Below, piece by piece: positions 1,445 through 44,457 of a DNA stretch of 64,000 nt. The stretch's first letter is position 1. Each line of letters starts with the position of its first letter. The notes under the pieces were generated by a model. It was not told where the DNA came from, did no database searches, and worked only from the letters and a program-made list of their open reading frames with translations. Source of the DNA: Bacteroidia bacterium (lineage in GTDB: Bacteria > Bacteroidota > Bacteroidia > AKYH767-A > OLB10); NCBI GenBank assembly GCA_016788065.1, contig JAEUTI010000001.1, forward strand, positions 1 through 64,000. Reading direction: 5' to 3'. The translations under genes and the position numbers were made by a program.

Positions 1445-1719
1445 ATTTTCGGTGGTTTCCCCTTTTTTGCTAAAAAGTGCTATTTTTGTCCCTGTTCCAG
1501 GGTTCAGTTATTAACAGGATTGAAAATTCTTGCCCGTTTTTTATCCTTTTCTGCCCCTGCCAGGTGCTGCTTAACAAAGTAAATTATGTTTTTTTTAGCA
1601 ATCTTTATAAAAACCTTACTTATGGCCTTCAGGCTATTGCATGAGCCATTTTTTTGTCATTACTTTACGGTGGGAAAATTATATAATACACACAAAAACC
1701 AACTTAATTATTTTTAACT
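1445..1719 (+). other. Intergenic spacer upstream of the Cas6-like gene
   Basis: This is 275 bases without a convincing gene. A TATTTTTG box resembling the Bacteroidota -7 element lies at 1481-1488, more than 230 bases before the next start, so a long leader or a small RNA is possible. I see no strong hairpin. Confidence 0.4.
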
Positions 1720-2457
1720 ATGAGAATTAAAATTTCTTTTCTCAGGGAACATTCTTCAGCAAATTCAATTCCTCTTCATCATCAGAAATTGCTGGCTGAT
1801 AGCCTCGGAGAATACAGCGACACCATCACCGGCGACCGGTTGATGTTCAATTTCTCTTCTTTGAAAGGAACTTCAAAGATTACGAATGGTTTTATGCGTT
1901 TTCTGTCTTCGAAAATCACTTTGGTGATATCGAGCAGAAGTCAGGAGTTTGCGGAAGCTTTGGTTACCAAAATTTTCGATAATCCGTATCTGGCGGTAGG
2001 AAAAATGAATCTCATCCCAAAAACTTATGAGGTAATTCCAGACCCGTCATTTCAAACGAAAATGCGTTACCTGTGCATTTCTCCGCTGATCATGGTAAAT
2101 CCCGATAAGGAGCCTGAAAGAGCTCAGGAACTAATTGATCCTACTTCTCAGGCATTTTCGGATCTGCTGTATAACATTACCCTTGACCGAATGGAAAAGG
2201 CAGGCTATACAGAAGCTCAGTTGAATGAATTTGCCGAATTCGAAGCTCAACCTGATATGGAATACATTACCAAAATCAATGAGTCAGGCAAAAAGTTCGC
2301 CCGCTTCTACAAATCCGCTGCAGGTAATACTATGCTCGGATTTCTGCTTCCTTTCACTCTTCATGCCCACCCGGAAGTACATAAATTCATTTGGGAAGTT
2401 GGCCTTGGTGTACTCACCGAAGAGGGTTACGGAATGGTTGATATGGTTAAATCCTGA
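1720..2457 (+). CDS. cas6: Cas6-family CRISPR RNA-processing endoribonuclease, standalone
   Basis: The 245-residue protein shows the order of features of Cas6 RAMP proteins. It has an N-terminal beta strand (MRIKISF), an IPLHHQ segment with candidate catalytic histidines near residue 20, the FNFSSLKG strand-loop, and LVISSRSQEF. An SPLIMV strand starts the second ferredoxin fold, and the C-terminal glycine-rich loop GLGVLTEEGYGMVDMV matches the Cas6 signature. Cas6 enzymes cut CRISPR precursor RNA within each repeat. No other cas gene and no repeat-spacer array is visible in the window, so the crRNA role is inferred from the family only. The gene ends in its own terminator at 2511-2550, which makes it a single-gene unit. 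Confidence 0.72.
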   Translation: MRIKISFLREHSSANSIPLHHQKLLADSLGEYSDTITGDRLMFNFSSLKGTSKITNGFMRFLSSKITLVISSRSQEFAEALVTKIFDNPYLAVGKMNLIPKTYEVIPDPSFQTKMRYLCISPLIMVNPDKEPERAQELIDPTSQAFSDLLYNITLDRMEKAGYTEAQLNEFAEFEAQPDMEYITKINESGKKFARFYKSAAGNTMLGFLLPFTLHAHPEVHKFIWEVGLGVLTEEGYGMVDMVKS

Positions 2458-2510
2458 TGTCGGCAGCATTAGTAGCTGCACCCGGCATTTGATATTCTTT
2501 AACAAGAATC

Positions 2511-2550
2511 AAAAGAGGCTGACTCCCTTTCCAGAGCCGGCCTCTTTTTT
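2511..2550 (+). terminator. Rho-independent terminator after cas6
   Basis: Nine-base perfect arms (AAAAGAGGC at 2511-2519 and GCCTCTTTT at 2540-2548) are followed by a run of T. It separates cas6 from the transglycosylase gene starting at 2561. Confidence 0.8.
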
Positions 2551-2560
2551 ATTCTCACCT

Positions 2561-4528
2561 ATGACGCTGAAAAGAGCTGTTGCCATTTTAATTGCACTTG
2601 CTGCCATTTCGTTCGCCTCCTTTTTATTACTGAGAGGAGTCGTTCTGGAGAAAGCCATTTCCAAAGTGCAACAAAAAGTGAAAACCTCTCTTGGTGTTGA
2701 CCTGCTCATTGAAAAAGCATACTTCGAAAGTTTTGCACGTGTCGGCGCCGAGCACATTTATCTAATCCCTAAAAATAAAGATACCCTTTTCTATTGCAAC
2801 AAAGCAGCAATTTCATTTTCATTGTGGAGACTGATAAAAGGACAGCCTCCACTCAATAATATCGTACTGAAAACCGGTTATCTCCAATTAGTGGAGGTTA
2901 ATGACTCTATCTCCAATTTCAGTTTTCTATTTGAAAAAAACAAAAAACGTAGTGTCGACAGCGACACTTTAAAGTCGGCCATGAATTACCGTGAATTGGC
3001 CTCATCGCTTTGGCACCGGGCATTTGGACTGGCAGATTTTAATTTTAACATGACCGACTTCGAATTTCGGTGGATAGCACCCGGTTACCGGGAGGTACTG
3101 CAAATTACGGAATGCCGGCTTCAAAAAACAGTGTTTGCTGCAAGTGTAACAGATAGTCTGGCAACCGGCACTGCAACCTGGAAAGCTGAAGGTATCATTG
3201 ATCCCGATGCTGAAATTTTTCAACTGAAAGCTGCTTCAACAACTGACAAAATTATACCTGTACCCTTTTTTGAGAAAATATCCGGAATCTCGTACCGCCT
3301 GCACTCTTTCGAGCTGTTGCTCGATAGCGCTGAAATTGATAATGACTATTTCAAAACTCACCTGGTAGCTTCTGCCTTTCGTCCAGCAATCAATCACTGG
3401 CGCATTAGTCCCATTGATGTAAAACTCGACAGTATCAAACTCGACTTTCATGTAAGCATCAATGATTCAGCATTTGCATTTGATACCACTTCTCAAGTAC
3501 TTGTAAACCGTTTACCAATTCATACAGGATTTGAGATATCGAAAAACATAATTACGCTTGTAAATTTAAAAGTCAGAATTCCCGAAGTTGATGCCAATAC
3601 ATTTTTCACATCGCTCCCTTCCGGATTATTCTCTACTCTGGAAGGAATTAATGCTTCAGGACAATTAAAATACCGACTCGATTTCCGTTTAAATCCCGCA
3701 GTACCTGATTCACTTCATTTTGATTCGGAATTAAAAGGAAATAAATTCCGGATTACGAAATTCGGAAATGAAAATTTTGCTGCAATTAATGGTCAGTTTA
3801 TTTATGTAGCACAAGATAAGGACAGGATTCTTAGTGTTTTTCCGGTGGGTCCCGAAAATCCGGATTTTGTTCCTCTTACAGAAATTAGTCCGCTGCTGAT
3901 TAATTCCGTTCTAACAGCGGAAGATGGCACCTTCCGTTTTCACCGCGGCTTTAATGAAGAAGCATTTCGTCAATCGATTGCTACCAATATTAAAGAACGC
4001 CGGTTTGCCCGTGGTGGCAGCACCATCACCATGCAATTGGTCAAGAATGTTTTCTTAAATAGAAATAAAACCGTTTCCCGGAAGTTGGAAGAAGCAATCA
4101 TTGTGTGGATGATTGAATCGACCGGCATGGTTAGTAAAGACCGTATGCTCGAAGTATATCTGAATATTATTGAATGGGGTCCCGGAATATTCGGAATTGG
4201 AGAAGCATCTCAATTTTATTTCAGCAAGCATCCTTCTCAACTAACCTTAGAAGAAAGTATTTTCCTATCGAGCATCATTCCAAATCCGAAAGCTTTCCGT
4301 TACAGCTTCGATAAACAAGGTATGCTAAGGGAATATCTGCAATATTATTTTAAACTGGTGGCAGGCAGATTAGCACGCAAAGAAATAATAACGCAGGAAC
4401 AACTTGATCAATTGAAATTCGGAGTGGAACTCAAAGGTCCGGCACTTCAATATGTAGTACCGGCTGACACTATTCCTGCAGATACGATACCAACAGAATT
4501 TGAACCTCTATTCTTTGAAAACCTTTAA
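2561..4528 (+). CDS. Peptidoglycan glycosyltransferase (GT51) with long N-terminal extracytoplasmic region
   Basis: The chosen ATG at 2561 gives 655 residues beginning with a single membrane anchor (KRAVAILIALAAISFASFLLL). The frame stays open further upstream, but that stretch lies inside cas6 and its terminator. Residues about 30-440 resemble AsmA-type beta-rich regions. The GT51 domain follows with catalytic Glu454 in EDGTFRFHRG (454-463), GGSTITMQLVKN (485-496), RKLEEAIIVWMIE and MLEVYLNIIEWG. GT51 enzymes polymerise lipid II into glycan strands at the periplasmic face. There is no transpeptidase domain, so it is monofunctional, but it is much longer than MtgA-type enzymes (about 240 residues). 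Confidence 0.85.
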   Translation: MTLKRAVAILIALAAISFASFLLLRGVVLEKAISKVQQKVKTSLGVDLLIEKAYFESFARVGAEHIYLIPKNKDTLFYCNKAAISFSLWRLIKGQPPLNNIVLKTGYLQLVEVNDSISNFSFLFEKNKKRSVDSDTLKSAMNYRELASSLWHRAFGLADFNFNMTDFEFRWIAPGYREVLQITECRLQKTVFAASVTDSLATGTATWKAEGIIDPDAEIFQLKAASTTDKIIPVPFFEKISGISYRLHSFELLLDSAEIDNDYFKTHLVASAFRPAINHWRISPIDVKLDSIKLDFHVSINDSAFAFDTTSQVLVNRLPIHTGFEISKNIITLVNLKVRIPEVDANTFFTSLPSGLFSTLEGINASGQLKYRLDFRLNPAVPDSLHFDSELKGNKFRITKFGNENFAAINGQFIYVAQDKDRILSVFPVGPENPDFVPLTEISPLLINSVLTAEDGTFRFHRGFNEEAFRQSIATNIKERRFARGGSTITMQLVKNVFLNRNKTVSRKLEEAIIVWMIESTGMVSKDRMLEVYLNIIEWGPGIFGIGEASQFYFSKHPSQLTLEESIFLSSIIPNPKAFRYSFDKQGMLREYLQYYFKLVAGRLARKEIITQEQLDQLKFGVELKGPALQYVVPADTIPADTIPTEFEPLFFENL

Positions 4529-16854: not shown

Positions 16855-16882
16855 GTTACTTTTTGCTTAACCAAAAAGTAAC
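16855..16882. repeat. Perfect 11-bp inverted repeat (GTTACTTTTTG)
   Basis: The arms GTTACTTTTTG (16855-16865) and CAAAAAGTAAC (16872-16882) flank a 6-base loop. A diverged copy of the left side lies near 16757-16780. I recall similar words as common in Bacteroidota intergenic DNA. Confidence 0.75.
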
Positions 16883-16967: not shown

Positions 16968-17077
16968 TGTTGGAAGTTTGCCGTGCGCTGCTTTTTACTA
17001 AGACAGTTTTTTTCCAAGAAAAAACTGTCTTGTAAAAAAAGGCGCGAGTCGCGGCGCCAGAGGGCAAACTTCCAACA
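16968..17077. repeat. 110-bp nested inverted-repeat element
   Basis: The outer 15-bp perfect arms are TGTTGGAAGTTTGCC (16968-16982) and its complement at 17063-17077. Inside lies an AT-rich hairpin at about 16992-17038 (AAGACAGTTTTTT against AAAAAACTGTCTT, extended by about five more pairs with one bulge). A small GC hairpin GGCGC/GCGCC lies at 17041-17058. The DNA or RNA could fold into a three-branched structure. No coding potential is seen. Confidence 0.8.
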
Positions 17078-17397: not shown

Positions 17398-17814
17398 TTA
17401 GTCACCAAAAAATTCAAACCAAATAAGCGTGTTGCCATTTTTTTCAATTGCAAGTATATTATAGTGATACATGTTTGGCAAATCAGTATCTACATAATAA
17501 ATATAATTTGGAGAGTAAGAAATATAAGGACAGTGAACTTCTCCGCGTAACCTTTCTATATTGTTAGAGAATTTGAATTTGTTTTGAATATCATCCCTTT
17601 CAATATCACTTATTATAAATTCTGCAATCCCAAAACTGGAGTCAGTGTATTTATATTTGACAATAAAATCTGTTAACCCTGTATAATTTTGAAATGCAGA
17701 GACGGTATCAATAGGCTTAAATAGCCACCAGACACCTGTTAAAGTTGCAGCAACAGTAAAAACAAATATAAATCTCCAAATTGTTGACCATTTTATTTGC
17801 TTAGTATTATTCAT
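17398..17814 (-). CDS. Small membrane-anchored protein of unknown function (paralogue 1)
   Basis: I do not recognise this 138-residue protein. It has one N-terminal membrane helix (about residues 13-31) and an extracytoplasmic domain of about 105 residues, with NYTGLTDFIVKYKYTDSSFG, LRGEVHCPYISYSPNYIYYVDTD and the C-terminal ILAIEKNGNTLIWFEFFGD. It is clearly paralogous to the next gene upstream (17858-18262), with the same order of motifs and the same length. The two lie in tandem 43 bases apart within repeat-rich DNA, which suggests a recent duplication. Confidence 0.7.
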   Translation of the reverse strand: MNNTKQIKWSTIWRFIFVFTVAATLTGVWWLFKPIDTVSAFQNYTGLTDFIVKYKYTDSSFGIAEFIISDIERDDIQNKFKFSNNIERLRGEVHCPYISYSPNYIYYVDTDLPNMYHYNILAIEKNGNTLIWFEFFGD

Positions 17815-17857
17815 TTAAAATCATTTAAGAATGCGATTAATTAGTATTATTCCACAT

Positions 17858-18262
17858 CTAGTCACCATAAAATTCATACCATATAAGTGTGTTGCCTTTT
17901 TTTTCTAATGCTAAAATGCAATATCGATATCTTGTGGTGAAGTCTGTATTTATATGATATATATAATCTGGCGAATAAGTGATATAAGGACAGAAAACTT
18001 CTCCTTTTAGCGCCTCCATGTTTTCAGCAAATTTAAATCTCTTTAAAAATTTATCTCTTTCATAATTGGACATCACTAATTCGGCATACCCAAAAGAAGA
18101 TGCCGTATGTTTAAATTTTAATAAATATTCTTTTAATCCGGTATAATTCTTAAAATATTTAATTGTATCGGTTGGTGTAGTTAAAAACAAAATTCCCAAA
18201 GCAATCACTAAAGAAATGATTGTAATCTTTATCCCAATTGAAAATAATTTCAGTGATTTCAT
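17858..18262 (-). CDS. Small membrane-anchored protein of unknown function (paralogue 2)
   Basis: This 134-residue protein starts at ATG 18262 (MKSLKLFSIGIKITIISLV). The frame is open to 18430, but the extra 56 codons translate intergenic repeat words and are not credible. It has one membrane helix, then NYTGLKEYLLKFKHTASSFG, LKGEVFCPYITYSPDYIYHINTD and ILALEKKGNTLIWYEFYGD, matching paralogue 1 along its length. The conserved C-P-Y-I-S/T-Y-S-P core is the best family marker. Function is unknown. Confidence 0.7.
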   Translation of the reverse strand: MKSLKLFSIGIKITIISLVIALGILFLTTPTDTIKYFKNYTGLKEYLLKFKHTASSFGYAELVMSNYERDKFLKRFKFAENMEALKGEVFCPYITYSPDYIYHINTDFTTRYRYCILALEKKGNTLIWYEFYGD

Positions 18263-18700
18263 TGTTGTTCTTGGTTTTGTATATATATCATGTCCTATTT
18301 GACTTTTTGTTATTTGATATTCACCAAAAATTGGTTGCAGAATACCAATTATATTTCTGCCTATTATTTGGTGAATACCAATTACTTTTCTGCCAACTAT
18401 TTCCCCTATTACATATTTCCAATGACCCAAAATGAATTAAAGATTAAGAATTAAGGAGTAAGGATTTTTTTGCAGCCAAATGGTATGTCATTATTCAATA
18501 TTCCATTCTTGTTATTTGACATTCGTTAAAAATTGTCTGGAGAATACCAATTACTTTTCTGCCACTGAATTTCCCTATTACATATCACCAATGACTTACC
18601 TCTGCCGCCAATGACACAATGACGCGGCTTTACCGCCAATGACCCAATGACGCAGCGTTAGCCGCAAATGACGTTACAAAACACTAAAGTGTTTTGTAAC
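18263..18700. repeat. Repeat-rich spacer upstream of the paralogue pair
   Basis: The 438 bases carry two copies of GAATACCAATTACTTTTCTGCCA-like words (near 18370-18395 and 18544-18565; a diverged third lies near 17247-17267). A CTTAAT-type stretch lies near 18436-18465, and an array of CCAATGAC words at about 18588-18671. No gene is supported. Confidence 0.7.
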
Positions 18701-19084
18701 TTACCAGTCATCAAAATCGGTATAGTCATCCAGGTCTCTTCTTTCTTTTTTAGTGGGTCTTCCTAATCCCGGTTGTCGCCATGCACTACGGGCGGCAGCG
18801 GCGGCTTTCATTTTGTCGGTTACTTCGGCCGGGGTTATGTCGATGCAGTAATCGGGAACCAGTTTTGCTCCAAGTCTGTTGTGGACAAGCTGAACTACTT
18901 TTAATGTCCGTTCAAAGGGACCCGATTTAACGGTTATTATGTCGCCTATATTGACATTTCGAGAAGCTTTTACCAATTGCCCGCCTATCTTAATTTTTTC
19001 CAGCTCACAGGCACGTGCGGCCAGACTGCGGGTCTTGAAAATGCGTACTGCCCATAAATACTTGTCGATTCTGACCTTTTCCAT
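18701..19084 (-). CDS. S4-domain RNA-binding protein (Hsp15/HslR-like)
   Basis: The 127-residue protein opens with the S4 fold (VRIDKYLWAVRIFKTRSLAARACELEKIKIGGQLVKASRNVNIGDIITVKSG). A basic, alanine-rich tail and an acidic end (DLDDYTDFDDW) follow. In E. coli, Hsp15 binds stalled 50S subunits carrying peptidyl-tRNA. The C-terminal GLGRPTKKERRDLD segment is common to the family. It is divergent from ychF, with 89 bases between the starts. Confidence 0.85.
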   Translation of the reverse strand: MEKVRIDKYLWAVRIFKTRSLAARACELEKIKIGGQLVKASRNVNIGDIITVKSGPFERTLKVVQLVHNRLGAKLVPDYCIDITPAEVTDKMKAAAAARSAWRQPGLGRPTKKERRDLDDYTDFDDW

Positions 19085-19137
19085 ATCCTACAAAGTAAGG
19101 TGGTAGCGGCCTTATATGCAAAATCCGTGGAAAACAT

Positions 19138-19145
19138 TACCTTTG
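19138..19145 (+). promoter_or_regulatory. -7 promoter box of ychF
   Basis: TACCTTTG lies 28 bases before the ychF ATG and predicts a leader of about 24 bases. Confidence 0.6.
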
Positions 19146-19173
19146 CGCCCTTGAAAAATAAAGTAACAGAATT

Positions 19174-20274
19174 ATGGGCTTAAAATGCGGAATAGTTGGT
19201 CTCCCAAATGTTGGTAAATCAACCTTATTCAATTGTTTATCGAATGCCAAAGCACAGGCAGCAAATTTTCCTTTTTGTACAATTGAACCGAATATCGGGG
19301 TTATTACCGTTCCCGATGACCGTCTCAAGGAATTAGAAAGACTGGTTCAGCCTCAAAGAGTGCTTCCCACCACAGTGGAAATCGTTGATATTGCCGGATT
19401 GGTGAAAGGTGCCAGCAAAGGCGAAGGATTAGGCAATCAGTTTTTGGCTAATATCCGGGAAACGGATGCCATTTTGCATGTTTTACGCTGCTTCGATGAT
19501 CCGAATGTGGTGCATGTGGATGGAAGTGTGAATCCTATCAGAGATAAAGAAACCATCGATATCGAATTGCAATTAAAGGATCTGGATGCTGTTGACAAGA
19601 AGATTCAAAAAGTGGAAAAAGCAGCACGTGTTGGAACCGATAAAGAAGCTAAGAAAGCATACGAAGCACTTTTAATCTATAAAAAACATCTGGAACAGGG
19701 TAAATCGGCACGTTCAGCACCGGTGCAACCTGAAGACAAGCAATACATTGCAGATTTGTACTTACTAACTGATAAACCGGTGATGTATGTTTGTAATGTT
19801 GATGAAAAATCGGTCTTAACCGGAAACAAATATGTGGATCAGGTTAAGGAAGCTGTTAAAGATGAAAATGCAGAAGTACTTGTAATTGCTGCGGCGATTG
19901 AAGCCGACATTGCAGCGATGGATAGCTATGAAGACCGTAAAGTTTTCCTTGATGATCTGGGATTGACAGAATCGGGAGTAAGTAAACTTATTCAGGCTGC
20001 CTATCGCTTACTGGAGCTTTACACATATTTCACTGCCGGAGTAAAAGAAGTTCGTGCATGGACTATCCACAAGGGCATGACTGCACCACAGGCAGCCGGA
20101 GTAATTCACACCGATTTTGAAAAAGGATTTATTCGTGCCGAAGTAATTCATTACGATGATTATGTAAAGTACGGATCCGAACAAGCATGCAAAGAAGCAG
20201 GTAAATTAGCTATAGAAGGAAAAGAATATGTAGTGTGCGACGGAGATGTAATGCACTTCCGTTTCAATGTTTAA
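19174..20274 (+). CDS. ychF: Ribosome-binding ATPase YchF (OLA1 family)
   Basis: The 366-residue Obg-related P-loop protein starts [25 protein letters not shown] (G1). It continues with [15 protein letters not shown], the G3 motif [37 protein letters not shown] in the G4 region and the C-terminal TGS domain with [40 protein letters not shown]. YchF binds 70S ribosomes and hydrolyses ATP rather than GTP. The length is normal for the family (about 363). It ends before a bidirectional terminator. Confidence 0.97.
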
Positions 20275-41153: not shown

Positions 41154-41981
41154 ATCGGCCTTGCCGCTTCATTTGCGTCATTCGCAGCTAACGCTGCTGT
41201 CATTGGCAGCAAAGCTGCTGTCATTGGGTCATTGATGGTCATTGGGGATTTTCGGCGGAGCTACTGTCATTGTCTCATTTTAGTTTTGTAAATCTTCAAA
41301 ACAAAATTATACGTTGGACAATTTACGTTGAACATTTTACATTCACAATTTTATATTGATCAGTTTACATTTTGACGAATTTTCTTCTGACCAAAAGCAT
41401 TTTAATATTTAATAGGAATCTCTCCCTCTCCAGCCCCAAATGCAACACGGAGGATGATGCCTATGCTGGAGAGGGCCGGGGTGAGGAAAAGCGGCAGAGC
41501 TTGATAGCAAAGCTGCTGTCATTGGGTCATTGGCGGCAATGAGTCAATGTGCTAATTTGCTAATGCTTGCCATGAGCGCAGTCGAAGGGTGCTGATGTGC
41601 TAGTGTGCTGATTTTTTGTTCCAGTGTAATAAAAATGTGACTGCTTATTTCAGTGATCAGTTATCAGTGATCAGCGTTTTGCAGATACATTTCAAGATTT
41701 CGTTTTTCACTTATGATTTATTTTGTGGCTGCTAAAGCTGGTGGTTTTTCGTTCTCAAAATGCTTTTATTGCATATTGAGAAACAAGAAGTGAGAATTGA
41801 ATAATTTTGAAACTGCTATAGTACTCATATTTGGATTCTTCAACCAGTCAAATATTCTGCCTGTCTTCCTGATGCTTTTATTGAATATCAATTCACAAGA
41901 ATTGGATAGTGAATAAGGGTATTAAAAAAAGCAAGAAACTAAAAACCCTCAATGTTTCATCCTTTTTCGTATTTTAGCCTC
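41154..41981. repeat. Repeat-rich spacer upstream of the T9SS cargo gene (direct repeat copy A)
   Basis: The 828 bases hold no gene. They contain GTCATTGG-type words (41176-41250), TTTACATTGAACA-type words (41311-41370), and a hairpin with 11-bp arms CCCTCTCCAGC/GCTGGAGAGGG (41424-41434 and 41465-41475) next to CCGGGGTGAGG. TGTGCTAAT words with GAGCGCAGTCGAAGGG lie at 41548-41610, a CAGTGATCAG array at 41651-41674, and copy A of the mosaic repeat shared with 43563-43946 and 44118-44341 reaches 41916. Confidence 0.8.
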
Positions 41982-43496
41982 ATGAAGTTATTCCAGGCAG
42001 GTTTTTTATTTATTGTTTTTAGCATCATCGCTTGCGGGGTGCAGGCTCAAAAGCGGGGCTCGGTATGGTGCTTCGGCGACAGTGCTAAAGTTAATTTTTC
42101 TGATACAAGCAATATTATTACAGGGCACAGTAGTGTGAAGTCCAGAGGAAGTTGTGTGTCTATTTCAGATACCATGGGTAATTTAGAATTGTATGCTTAT
42201 ACACGAGCTGGAGTAAATGGAAATACTTCTCTTTTAAAAAATGCTACTGATTCACTTTTGATCAATGGGGATTCAATTGTTGGAGAAGGGTGGTATCGAG
42301 AATTAGTTTTGCTTCCTTATCCTGGAAATGACTCTCTAAATTATTTATTTTCTATTGGTGTTGCTGGATCGAGTGAAGATGGGTTATATTATTCGATCGC
42401 AAATATGTCAGCCAACAGTGGACAAGGGGCAGTCATTCAAAAAAACATTCAATTAGAGAATTTTAAAGCCGTAGATTGTTTGACTGCCATCAAACATGGC
42501 AATGGCCGCGATTGGTGGGTGTTTTTTAGGAAGTCAGATTTCCCATCAGGGGGAAATAATGAATGGTATTTGTATTTGGTTACTCCACAAGGGATTGCAA
42601 CCCAAATTATTCAAGCTGTTGGAAATTACAATAGCACTAATTCCGGTCGAATTTCATTTAACACTTCAGGTAATAGAATGGCATACATCAATTATAAAGG
42701 ATTAATTGAACTATATGACTTTAACCGCTGTACTGGAATAATTAGTAACCCAATTACTATTTCAGCAGAGAGTTCTCAGGCACCATGGCCTGAGAACTGG
42801 AGCTCAGAATTTTCACCTTCCGGACAATTTTTATATATGACTCAAATAGCAGCTTTTCCACCTGACAGTTGTTATCTCATTCAATTTGATTTAAGTTCTG
42901 CTAACATTTCACAATCTGCCGATACTATTTGGGTTACACCTTTTCAAGAAAATATGGGCCAGTTAAAGAAAGCACCAAATAATAAAGTCTACTTAGCTAC
43001 AAATTATAAAGGAGGGTATCCCTATGCTGATACTACCTACAATTATATTAACACAAATCTAAGTGTGATAAATTCTCCCGACAGCATGGGTTTAGCTTGT
43101 GATTTTCAGCCCTTCAGTTTTTCTTTAGGTGGAAAGCGCAGTTACTTCGGCCTCCCAAACAACCCCGATTACGACTTACCCGCCCTCGCTGGCAGTCAGT
43201 GTGATACGTTGGTATCGCAAAATGAGTTGGCAGAGGCAGCGGCAGTAGGCAGTCTTCATGTTTACTACCACCCGGCATGGGAGAAAGCATTCATTAACGC
43301 CTCTAACTTAAAAGGCAAAACCGGCAAGTTGTTGGTGTATGATATGCAAGGAAAAGTAGTTCATTCGGAGCCGCTCAAGATACAGAATGGGTACTATACG
43401 CGGGATTTGTCAATGATAGGTAGGGCTGATGGGGTATACCTGGTGGTTATAGAAACGGAGGTGGAGCGGTTGGTGAAGAAGATGCTTGTGGAATGA
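41982..43496 (+). CDS. Secreted beta-propeller-like protein with T9SS sorting tail
   Basis: From ATG 41982 the protein has 504 residues; a frame start at 41952 adds 10 residues before the signal peptide. The signal (KLFQAGFLFIVFSIIACGVQAQ) is followed by about 400 residues of WD40-like/beta-propeller character, with WYLYLVTPQG, IELYDFNRCTGIISNP and QFLYMTQIAAFPPDSCYLIQFDLSS. The T9SS type A tail is LLVYDMQGKVVHSE to VERLVKKMLVE. The function is unknown. It is enclosed by long direct repeats on both sides, as a cassette would be. The last 300 bases look more GC-rich than the rest of the gene. Confidence 0.78.
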   Translation: MKLFQAGFLFIVFSIIACGVQAQKRGSVWCFGDSAKVNFSDTSNIITGHSSVKSRGSCVSISDTMGNLELYAYTRAGVNGNTSLLKNATDSLLINGDSIVGEGWYRELVLLPYPGNDSLNYLFSIGVAGSSEDGLYYSIANMSANSGQGAVIQKNIQLENFKAVDCLTAIKHGNGRDWWVFFRKSDFPSGGNNEWYLYLVTPQGIATQIIQAVGNYNSTNSGRISFNTSGNRMAYINYKGLIELYDFNRCTGIISNPITISAESSQAPWPENWSSEFSPSGQFLYMTQIAAFPPDSCYLIQFDLSSANISQSADTIWVTPFQENMGQLKKAPNNKVYLATNYKGGYPYADTTYNYINTNLSVINSPDSMGLACDFQPFSFSLGGKRSYFGLPNNPDYDLPALAGSQCDTLVSQNELAEAAAVGSLHVYYHPAWEKAFINASNLKGKTGKLLVYDMQGKVVHSEPLKIQNGYYTRDLSMIGRADGVYLVVIETEVERLVKKMLVE

Positions 43497-44457
43497 TTTT
43501 TTTATTACTCTATATGCACAGGTTCTTATAGGAGTTTCATGCTTAAATGATGTGACTGCTTTAATGTGCTAATGCTTGCCCTGAGCGCAGTCGAAGGGTG
43601 CTGATGTGCTAGTGTGCTGATTTTTTGTTCCAGAGTAAAAAAATGTAACTGCTTATTTCAGTGATCGGTGATCGGTGATCAGTTATCAGTGATCAGTGTT
43701 TTGCTATTGAATTTCAAGATTTCGTTTTTTATTTATGATTTATGTAGAGCTGCTATTCCTGTAGGTTTTTCGTTCTCAAAATGCTTTTATTGCATATTGA
43801 GAAACAAGAAGTGAGAATTGAATAATATTTTGCTCCCTATTTCCTTATTCAATTTGTAATATTCAATATTTGTTATTCAATATTTTGAAGCTGCAATAGA
43901 ACTCATATTTGCGTTTTTCAACTGATCAAATATTCTCAATATCTTCAAGAGTCATTTGCGGCAAAGCCGCGTCATTAGGTCATTCATGGTCATTGAAGAA
44001 ATTCTCTCCTCATCGCGAAAGCGAATTTCTCTGCGTCTCCCTAACTCTGCGTTCAAAAAAAAGGATTTCATAGTTCATAAGCAATAAGGGGAGTTTATCG
44101 GCGGAAGTTTATTTCGTACTCTCAAAATGCTTTTTATTGAATATAGATTAACAAGAAGTGAGAATTGAATAATATTTTGCTCCCTATTTCCTTATTAAAT
44201 TTGTAATATTCAATATTTGGTATTAAATATTTTGAAACTGCTATAGTACTCATATTTGGATTCTTCAACCAGTCAAATATTCTGCCTGTCTTCATGATGC
44301 TTTTATTGAATATCAATTAACAAGAATTGAATAGTGAATAATGACATTTCAAACCATGTCAACCTATTTCAGTCTAGGTCAATCTAGCATCTATCATCTA
44401 TAATTTATCATTTTAGCGAATTTTCCTTCTGAGCAGAAAATCCTTAATTCTTAATTT
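43497..44457. repeat. Repeat-rich convergent spacer (direct repeat copies B and C)
   Basis: The 961 bases hold no gene. Copy B (43563-43946) repeats copy A's TGTGCTAATGC, GAGCGCAGTCGAAGGG, CAGTGATC and AAAATGCTTTTATTGCATA modules. GTCATTTGCGGCAAAGCCG words lie at 43951-43998, and a CTCTGCGTCTCCCTAACTCTGC-like word near 44030-44052. Copy C (44118-44341) shares one module with B and another with A. CTATCATCTATAATTTATC words and CTTAAT words reach 44470. Confidence 0.8.

Follow-up and report, generated by a model that had tools for sequence, protein, structure and literature searches.

A Cas6-fold protein without the canonical active site that appears to have left CRISPR in Bacteroidota

The cas6L gene and its product

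The DNA analyzed here, hereafter the window, is a stretch of 64,000 nucleotides from a Bacteroidia bacterium (GCA_016788065.1, contig JAEUTI010000001.1, positions 1 to 64,000). At positions 1720 to 2457 of its plus strand lies a gene with an ATG start, named cas6L here, which family, structure and tree searches identify as encoding a Cas6-fold protein of 245 residues without the canonical Tyr/His/Lys active site. On balance, we consider it probable that this protein is a domesticated Cas6 paralogue that has left clustered regularly interspaced short palindromic repeats (CRISPR) systems, binds RNA, probably without cleaving it, and possibly acts in translation with the ATPase YchF. The computed basis of this reading comprises homology, predicted fold, membership in one orthologous clade, presence independent of Cas1, loss of the catalytic triad, a set of new invariant residues and adjacency to ychF in three clades.

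The gene follows an intergenic leader of 275 nt (1445 to 1719, plus strand), which presumably holds its own promoter, and ends in an intrinsic terminator, a hairpin with a T-run at 2511 to 2548 of the same strand (folding energy -19.3 kcal/mol, z -3.95). At this 3′ end, a simple scan for terminators picked up a site on the minus strand alone, probably because it limits loops to 8 nt. Upstream on the plus strand is a gene of the EEP family (293 to 1444; PF03372, 4.6e-20), a neighbor common to part of the window’s family, and downstream is a monofunctional transglycosylase gene (2561 to 4528, plus strand; PF00912, 1.4e-44) that recurs at many loci of the window’s order. An earlier reading made from the letters alone, referred to here as the sequence-only reading, had described a lone gene for a full-length Cas6-type protein, with its own terminator, between an EEP gene and a cell-wall polymerase gene, and each part of that description held. 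It had also seen no cas gene or array within 64 kb, and we likewise found no repeat-spacer array among the 20 listed of 25 direct-repeat families and, using PADLOC, no cas genes in 20 other window proteins (positions 293 to 24066), the remaining proteins not having been scanned singly. Therefore, cas6L is encoded with neither cas genes nor an array.

Conservation and substitution pattern rule out that cas6L is a chance open reading frame. The gene shares 92.5% nucleotide identity with its nearest relative, from which it differs by 51 synonymous codon changes and 3 nonsynonymous ones (nonsynonymous rate dN 0.007, synonymous rate dS 0.41). Its product scores 64.8 bits against the cut-off of 58.65 for the cas6 equivalog TIGR01877, and it matches PF01881 (1.6e-15; 58.4 bits, cut-off 23), as do 37 of 37 aligned relatives, and the Cas6b model of PADLOC (5.2e-27). 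An AlphaFold2 model built from the 37 aligned sequences has a mean predicted local distance difference test (pLDDT) score of 94.1 and finds 3qjj_B in Foldseek with an E-value of 8.6e-17. In VIA comparisons, the five best entries are all Cas6 structures (Z of 25.3 for 3qjj, 25.3 for 5yi6, 25.2 for 3ufc, 23.9 for 3i4h and 23.2 for 3pkm), and the next entry falls to 15.3. The sequence-only reading had proposed structure prediction as a check, with a lack of similarity to Cas6 counting against its assignment; the outcome was a strong likeness (Z about 25). Both the double RRM/RAMP fold and the C-terminal glycine-rich loop are present, with the loop glycines kept in 37 of 37 orthologues, and the combination of a Cas6 fold with a missing canonical active site is that of a non-catalytic Cas6 paralogue.

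In a tree of 73 selected proteins, from which duplicate sequences had been dropped, a branch with 100/100 support separates 37 cas6L orthologues from 36 CRISPR-type Cas6 proteins (clade C). The orthologues fall into clade A (the window’s order, 17 sequences), clade B (family f9, 17) and clade D (family f93, 3), and the branching order among these three is unsure because the tree program warned that long branches meet. The CRISPR-type class was assigned from weak scores and catalytic motifs, without annotating cas neighbors singly, and a simple test found an array beside only one of these Cas6 genes (L208).

According to the available text of PMC3652601, the active site of PfuCas6 consists of Tyr31, His46 and Lys52. 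The CRISPR-type Cas6 proteins of the phylum carry a presumably matching motif, IY...LH..G...KLFTFS, with the tyrosine in 36 of 36, the histidine in 36 of 36 and the lysine in 35 of 36, whereas at the same positions, placed by motif and alignment rather than by superposition, the cas6L orthologues have the histidine in 0 of 37, the tyrosine in 1 and the lysine in 3. The stretch that would hold the histidine is deleted; correspondingly, a profile alignment to 5yi6 shows the stretch with the LH of that protein as an insertion relative to cas6L. The catalytic histidine with its tyrosine and lysine, as expected of a CRISPR Cas6, is missing from cas6L. Eight other residues, His21, K49, S147, D148, K191, R195, Y197 and D241, are invariant in 37 of 37 orthologues, and each occurs in at most 6 of 36 CRISPR-type proteins (3, 0, 6, 4, 0 and 2 for K49, D148, K191, R195, Y197 and D241, respectively). 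The glycine-rich loops differ as well: they lack Lys and Arg in all 20 sequences of clades A and D (17 of 17 in clade A alone), contain Lys in 17 of 17 sequences of clade B, and contain Lys or Arg in 29 of 36 CRISPR-type proteins.

Presence of cas6L without regard to CRISPR

The sequence-only reading found no CRISPR system in sight, a statement that fails for the genome as a whole. Whole-genome searches placed its only Cas1 on contig 92 and its only CRISPR repeat copies on contigs 92 and 95. This Cas1 is the C-terminal part of an 876-residue protein with a reverse transcriptase (RT) domain (PF00078, 3e-24), whose N-terminal region matches the Cas6 family PF10040 weakly and below the cut-off (E 0.028). 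Beside the RT-Cas1 gene are a cas2 gene and an array of 23 repeats (L026, 19-4598), and contig 95 (L177, 9712-19406) carries a further 12 copies of the identical 36-nt repeat, adjoining Cmr1, Cas10, Cmr3, Cmr4 and Cmr6. These parts lie at the ends of both contigs, and they probably represent a single type III-B system that the assembly has divided. A PF10040 profile search of the genome gave no matches, catching neither cas6L nor, at that threshold, the fused Cas6-like domain. A complete type I or III locus elsewhere without a cas6 of its own would have spoken against an orphan role, but the locus found here is not of that kind because its Cas1 protein has the N-terminal region that weakly matches Cas6.

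The conservation of cas6L goes far beyond chance. All but one of the 42 genomes of the window’s order have it as a single copy (41 of 42), including 33 of 33 genomes of good quality, and the exception is 58% complete. Family f9, which is probably Cyclobacteriaceae, judging in part from where L061 and L063 fall in the tree, has cas6L in 102 of 118 genomes; the scores there are bimodal, with orthologues below an E-value of 1e-49 and a second match above 1e-11 in 9 genomes. Strong matches in a sample of the class (27 of 395 genomes) are confined to the window’s order (16), f9 (8) and f93 (3), and those in a sample of the phylum (9 of 395) to the window’s genome and 8 genomes of f9.

We compared this pattern with that of CRISPR systems, whose presence in other genomes was judged by Cas1 and Cas9 and not by array searches. 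Cas1 is present in 9 of 42 genomes of the order, the window’s among them, and at the other eight Cas1 loci Cas9 was found in every case. Cas9 systems do not use Cas6. Cas1 is missing from 33 of the 41 genomes of the order with cas6L, and 7 others carry a Cas9 system; the remaining Cas9 genome is also the only one of the order that lacks cas6L. In f9, where 47 of 118 genomes have Cas1, 43 have both genes, 59 cas6L only, 4 Cas1 only and 12 neither (Fisher p 0.27). Judged by Cas1 and Cas9, the occurrence of cas6L does not follow that of class 1 systems, which use Cas6; the window’s own genome does have a type III-B system. The order-wide presence without Cas1, the Cas9 loci and the f9 counts led us to reject dependence of cas6L on a distant array, one of the two options raised by the sequence-only reading. 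The other option, an orphan with a role outside CRISPR, is strongly supported because the gene is near-universal in genomes without Cas1. The same reading had suggested examining conservation in relatives that lack CRISPR; the gene is kept in those without Cas1, and its two window neighbors recur at part of the loci. We conclude that this Cas6-fold protein has very likely left CRISPR.

The ychF association and a possible role

About 17 kb from cas6L, locus comparison placed ychF, for the ribosome-binding ATPase YchF/OLA1 (19174 to 20274, plus strand). Its divergent neighbor (18701 to 19084, minus strand) presumably encodes, judging from its sequence, an S4-domain RNA-binding protein. Elsewhere ychF is the immediate upstream neighbor of cas6L, in the same orientation: this holds for 16 of 16 loci of clade B, 3 of 3 of clade D and 7 of 37 distinct loci of clade A (L156 and L058 denote a single locus, which entered the count once), and the two genes are 35-231 nt apart. 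At four of the clade A loci (L041, L042, L046 and L051), the full order is intact, with the S4-domain gene divergent before ychF and cas6L behind it. The window retains the S4-domain gene and ychF side by side (18701-20274), but cas6L does not follow them. Read most simply, ychF and cas6L were paired in the ancestor and became separated in the window’s family. Other clade A neighbors are mutL, rhomboid-like genes, the transglycosylase gene and parE/parC, several of these names being our presumptive assignments from sequence. A hidden Markov model of clades A, B and D, run on 30 ychF loci drawn from the 116 class genomes with ychF, revealed no diverged cas6L, matching only the two clade D loci among them; the next-best match, one open reading frame at E 0.0086, was taken as chance. 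Both a single origin followed by losses and transfer between lineages are possible histories of the gene, and the shared place behind ychF favors common descent or transfer as a block.

The reading that we prefer is as follows. An old paralogue of CRISPR Cas6 would have left CRISPR and joined the core genes of several lineages of Bacteroidota. Because the double-RAMP fold and the glycine-rich loop are kept, cas6L most likely still binds RNA, and because it has lost the segment with the catalytic histidine as well as the tyrosine and lysine that complete the triad, that RNA is most likely bound or remodeled rather than cut at the Cas6 site. We infer such binding without cutting from sequence comparison and hold it to be probable. 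The RNA may belong to translation, as rRNA, tRNA or an mRNA leader, with cas6L acting with or alongside YchF; what suggests this is the location of cas6L immediately downstream of ychF, which is probably ancestral. PMC8779481 describes YchF as an ATPase that associates with ribosomes and regulates translation, and notes that leaders in Bacteroidetes lack clear Shine-Dalgarno motifs. That cas6L works with YchF in translation is a tentative proposal, for which the observed evidence is gene adjacency in three clades. Slightly more tentative still is the fuller scenario of a single recruitment of a CRISPR protein to the core translation machinery in the ancestor of several Bacteroidia lineages, in which cas6L would bind RNA as a partner of YchF, either at the ribosome or on mRNA leaders without a Shine-Dalgarno sequence. 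By eye, the regions upstream of 28 cas6L loci shared no recognizable RNA element, only scattered TTTG and TAnnTTTG strings.

Several observations weigh against this reading. The link to ychF is absent from most clade A genomes, the window’s included, and gaps of 35-231 nt are no proof of an operon. Sixteen of 118 f9 genomes do not have cas6L, and the absence of Cas1 from draft genomes leaves room for arrays or for class 1 systems without Cas1. Sulfolobus Cas6 Sso1437 cuts though it lacks the canonical histidine (PMC3652601, available text), so the loss of the triad is no proof of lost cleavage. The invariant His21 of cas6L could act in cleavage.

The last two points lead to the strongest rival, that cas6L is still a nuclease whose active site has moved, with His21, Lys49, Lys191, Arg195 and Tyr197 as candidates, and that it matures a housekeeping RNA. 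These residues are invariant in 37 of 37 orthologues and rare in CRISPR-type Cas6, and Cas6 active sites are plastic according to the same source (PMC3652601). However, the invariance is equally consistent with RNA binding, and the clade A loops have neither Lys nor Arg in 17 of 17 sequences; we regard this explanation as unlikely. Considerably less probable is that cas6L is a defense factor with a Cas6 fold, sensing foreign RNA for example, and not a translation protein. Its Cas ancestry fits, and RAMP proteins act mostly in defense, but defense genes are usually patchy, whereas cas6L is a stable single-copy gene under strong purifying selection with housekeeping neighbors (ychF, mutL, rhomboid, parE/parC) and no defense island. 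Least credible is that it processes CRISPR RNA in trans for the type III-B system of its host: Cas6 genes are often scattered, there are 35 repeat copies in the genome, Cmr1/Cas10/Cmr3/Cmr4/Cmr6 lie on contig 95 and the fused Cas6-like domain is weak, but 33 of the 41 cas6L genomes of the order have no Cas1, seven of the remaining eight have Cas9 at the Cas1 locus, f9 shows no significant association with Cas1 and the triad is lost in 37 of 37.

The sequence-only reading had named two hairpins in the window as candidate RNA partners. Both fold, the one at 16855-16882 at -9.7 kcal/mol and the 110-nt intergenic inverted repeat at 16968-17077 at -59.3 kcal/mol (z -9.8), but nothing ties either to cas6L, and the longer is possibly an element like a miniature inverted-repeat transposable element or a strong RNA hairpin. 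Nearby, the stretch 17398-18616 holds a pair of similar genes (138 and 190 residues) that, with repeats of 58-64 nt around them, resemble a recent duplication. An AT-rich 42-nt repeat occurs five times and a 173-nt repeat twice at 41764-44342. A 403-residue protein encoded at 22855-24066 matches mad2 in PADLOC (1.9e-15) over residues 211-366, perhaps only through a shared regulatory domain.

Comparison with known systems

The Cas6 family and fold are already known, and what is new here is the genomic setting and the lost active site. In the open-licence PMC literature, with subscription papers and preprints outside its scope, we found no account of a Cas6 gene that belongs to the core genome of Bacteroidota independently of CRISPR, and no paper that treats YchF together with Cas6. 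The exaptations of CRISPR parts covered in the available text of a 2022 review involve entire systems, mobile elements or repeat RNAs (PMC8730458). If our reading is true, a lone Cas6 that became a stably inherited core gene would represent a different direction of CRISPR exaptation, and cas6L would be tractable enough for its RNA to be identified through crosslinking and immunoprecipitation (CLIP). There is also a practical consequence. Representatives of clades A, B and D (cas6L of the window, L137 and L140) all exceed the TIGR01877 cut-off, so automatic annotation would call them CRISPR Cas6, and inventories that count cas6 would report orphan Cas6 in Bacteroidota without class 1 CRISPR.

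By gene arrangement alone, cas6L resembles the enterobacterial pairing of ychF with the peptidyl-tRNA hydrolase gene (pth), which also sets a translation-related RNA-handling gene beside ychF, although the partner gene is a different one and the translation role of cas6L is presumptive (PMC8779481, available text). It shares with Sulfolobus Sso1437 the absence of the canonical catalytic histidine (PMC3652601), but Sso1437 processes CRISPR RNA and cas6L shows no tie to CRISPR. With CRISPR Cas6 at large (TIGR01877, PF01881), it has in common the full-length fold, the glycine-rich loop GxGxxxxxGxG and a score above the NCBIfam cut-off; it differs in having no adjacent array or cas genes and no catalytic Tyr/His/Lys, in being kept without Cas1 and in its own set of invariant residues. 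Among its closest solved structures are two Cas6 paralogues, PfuCas6nc (3ufc, Z 25.2) and PH0350 (3qjj, Z 25.3), from archaea that have CRISPR. The former is termed non-catalytic (PMC3652601), and, unlike either of them, cas6L is a core bacterial gene that is kept without Cas1.
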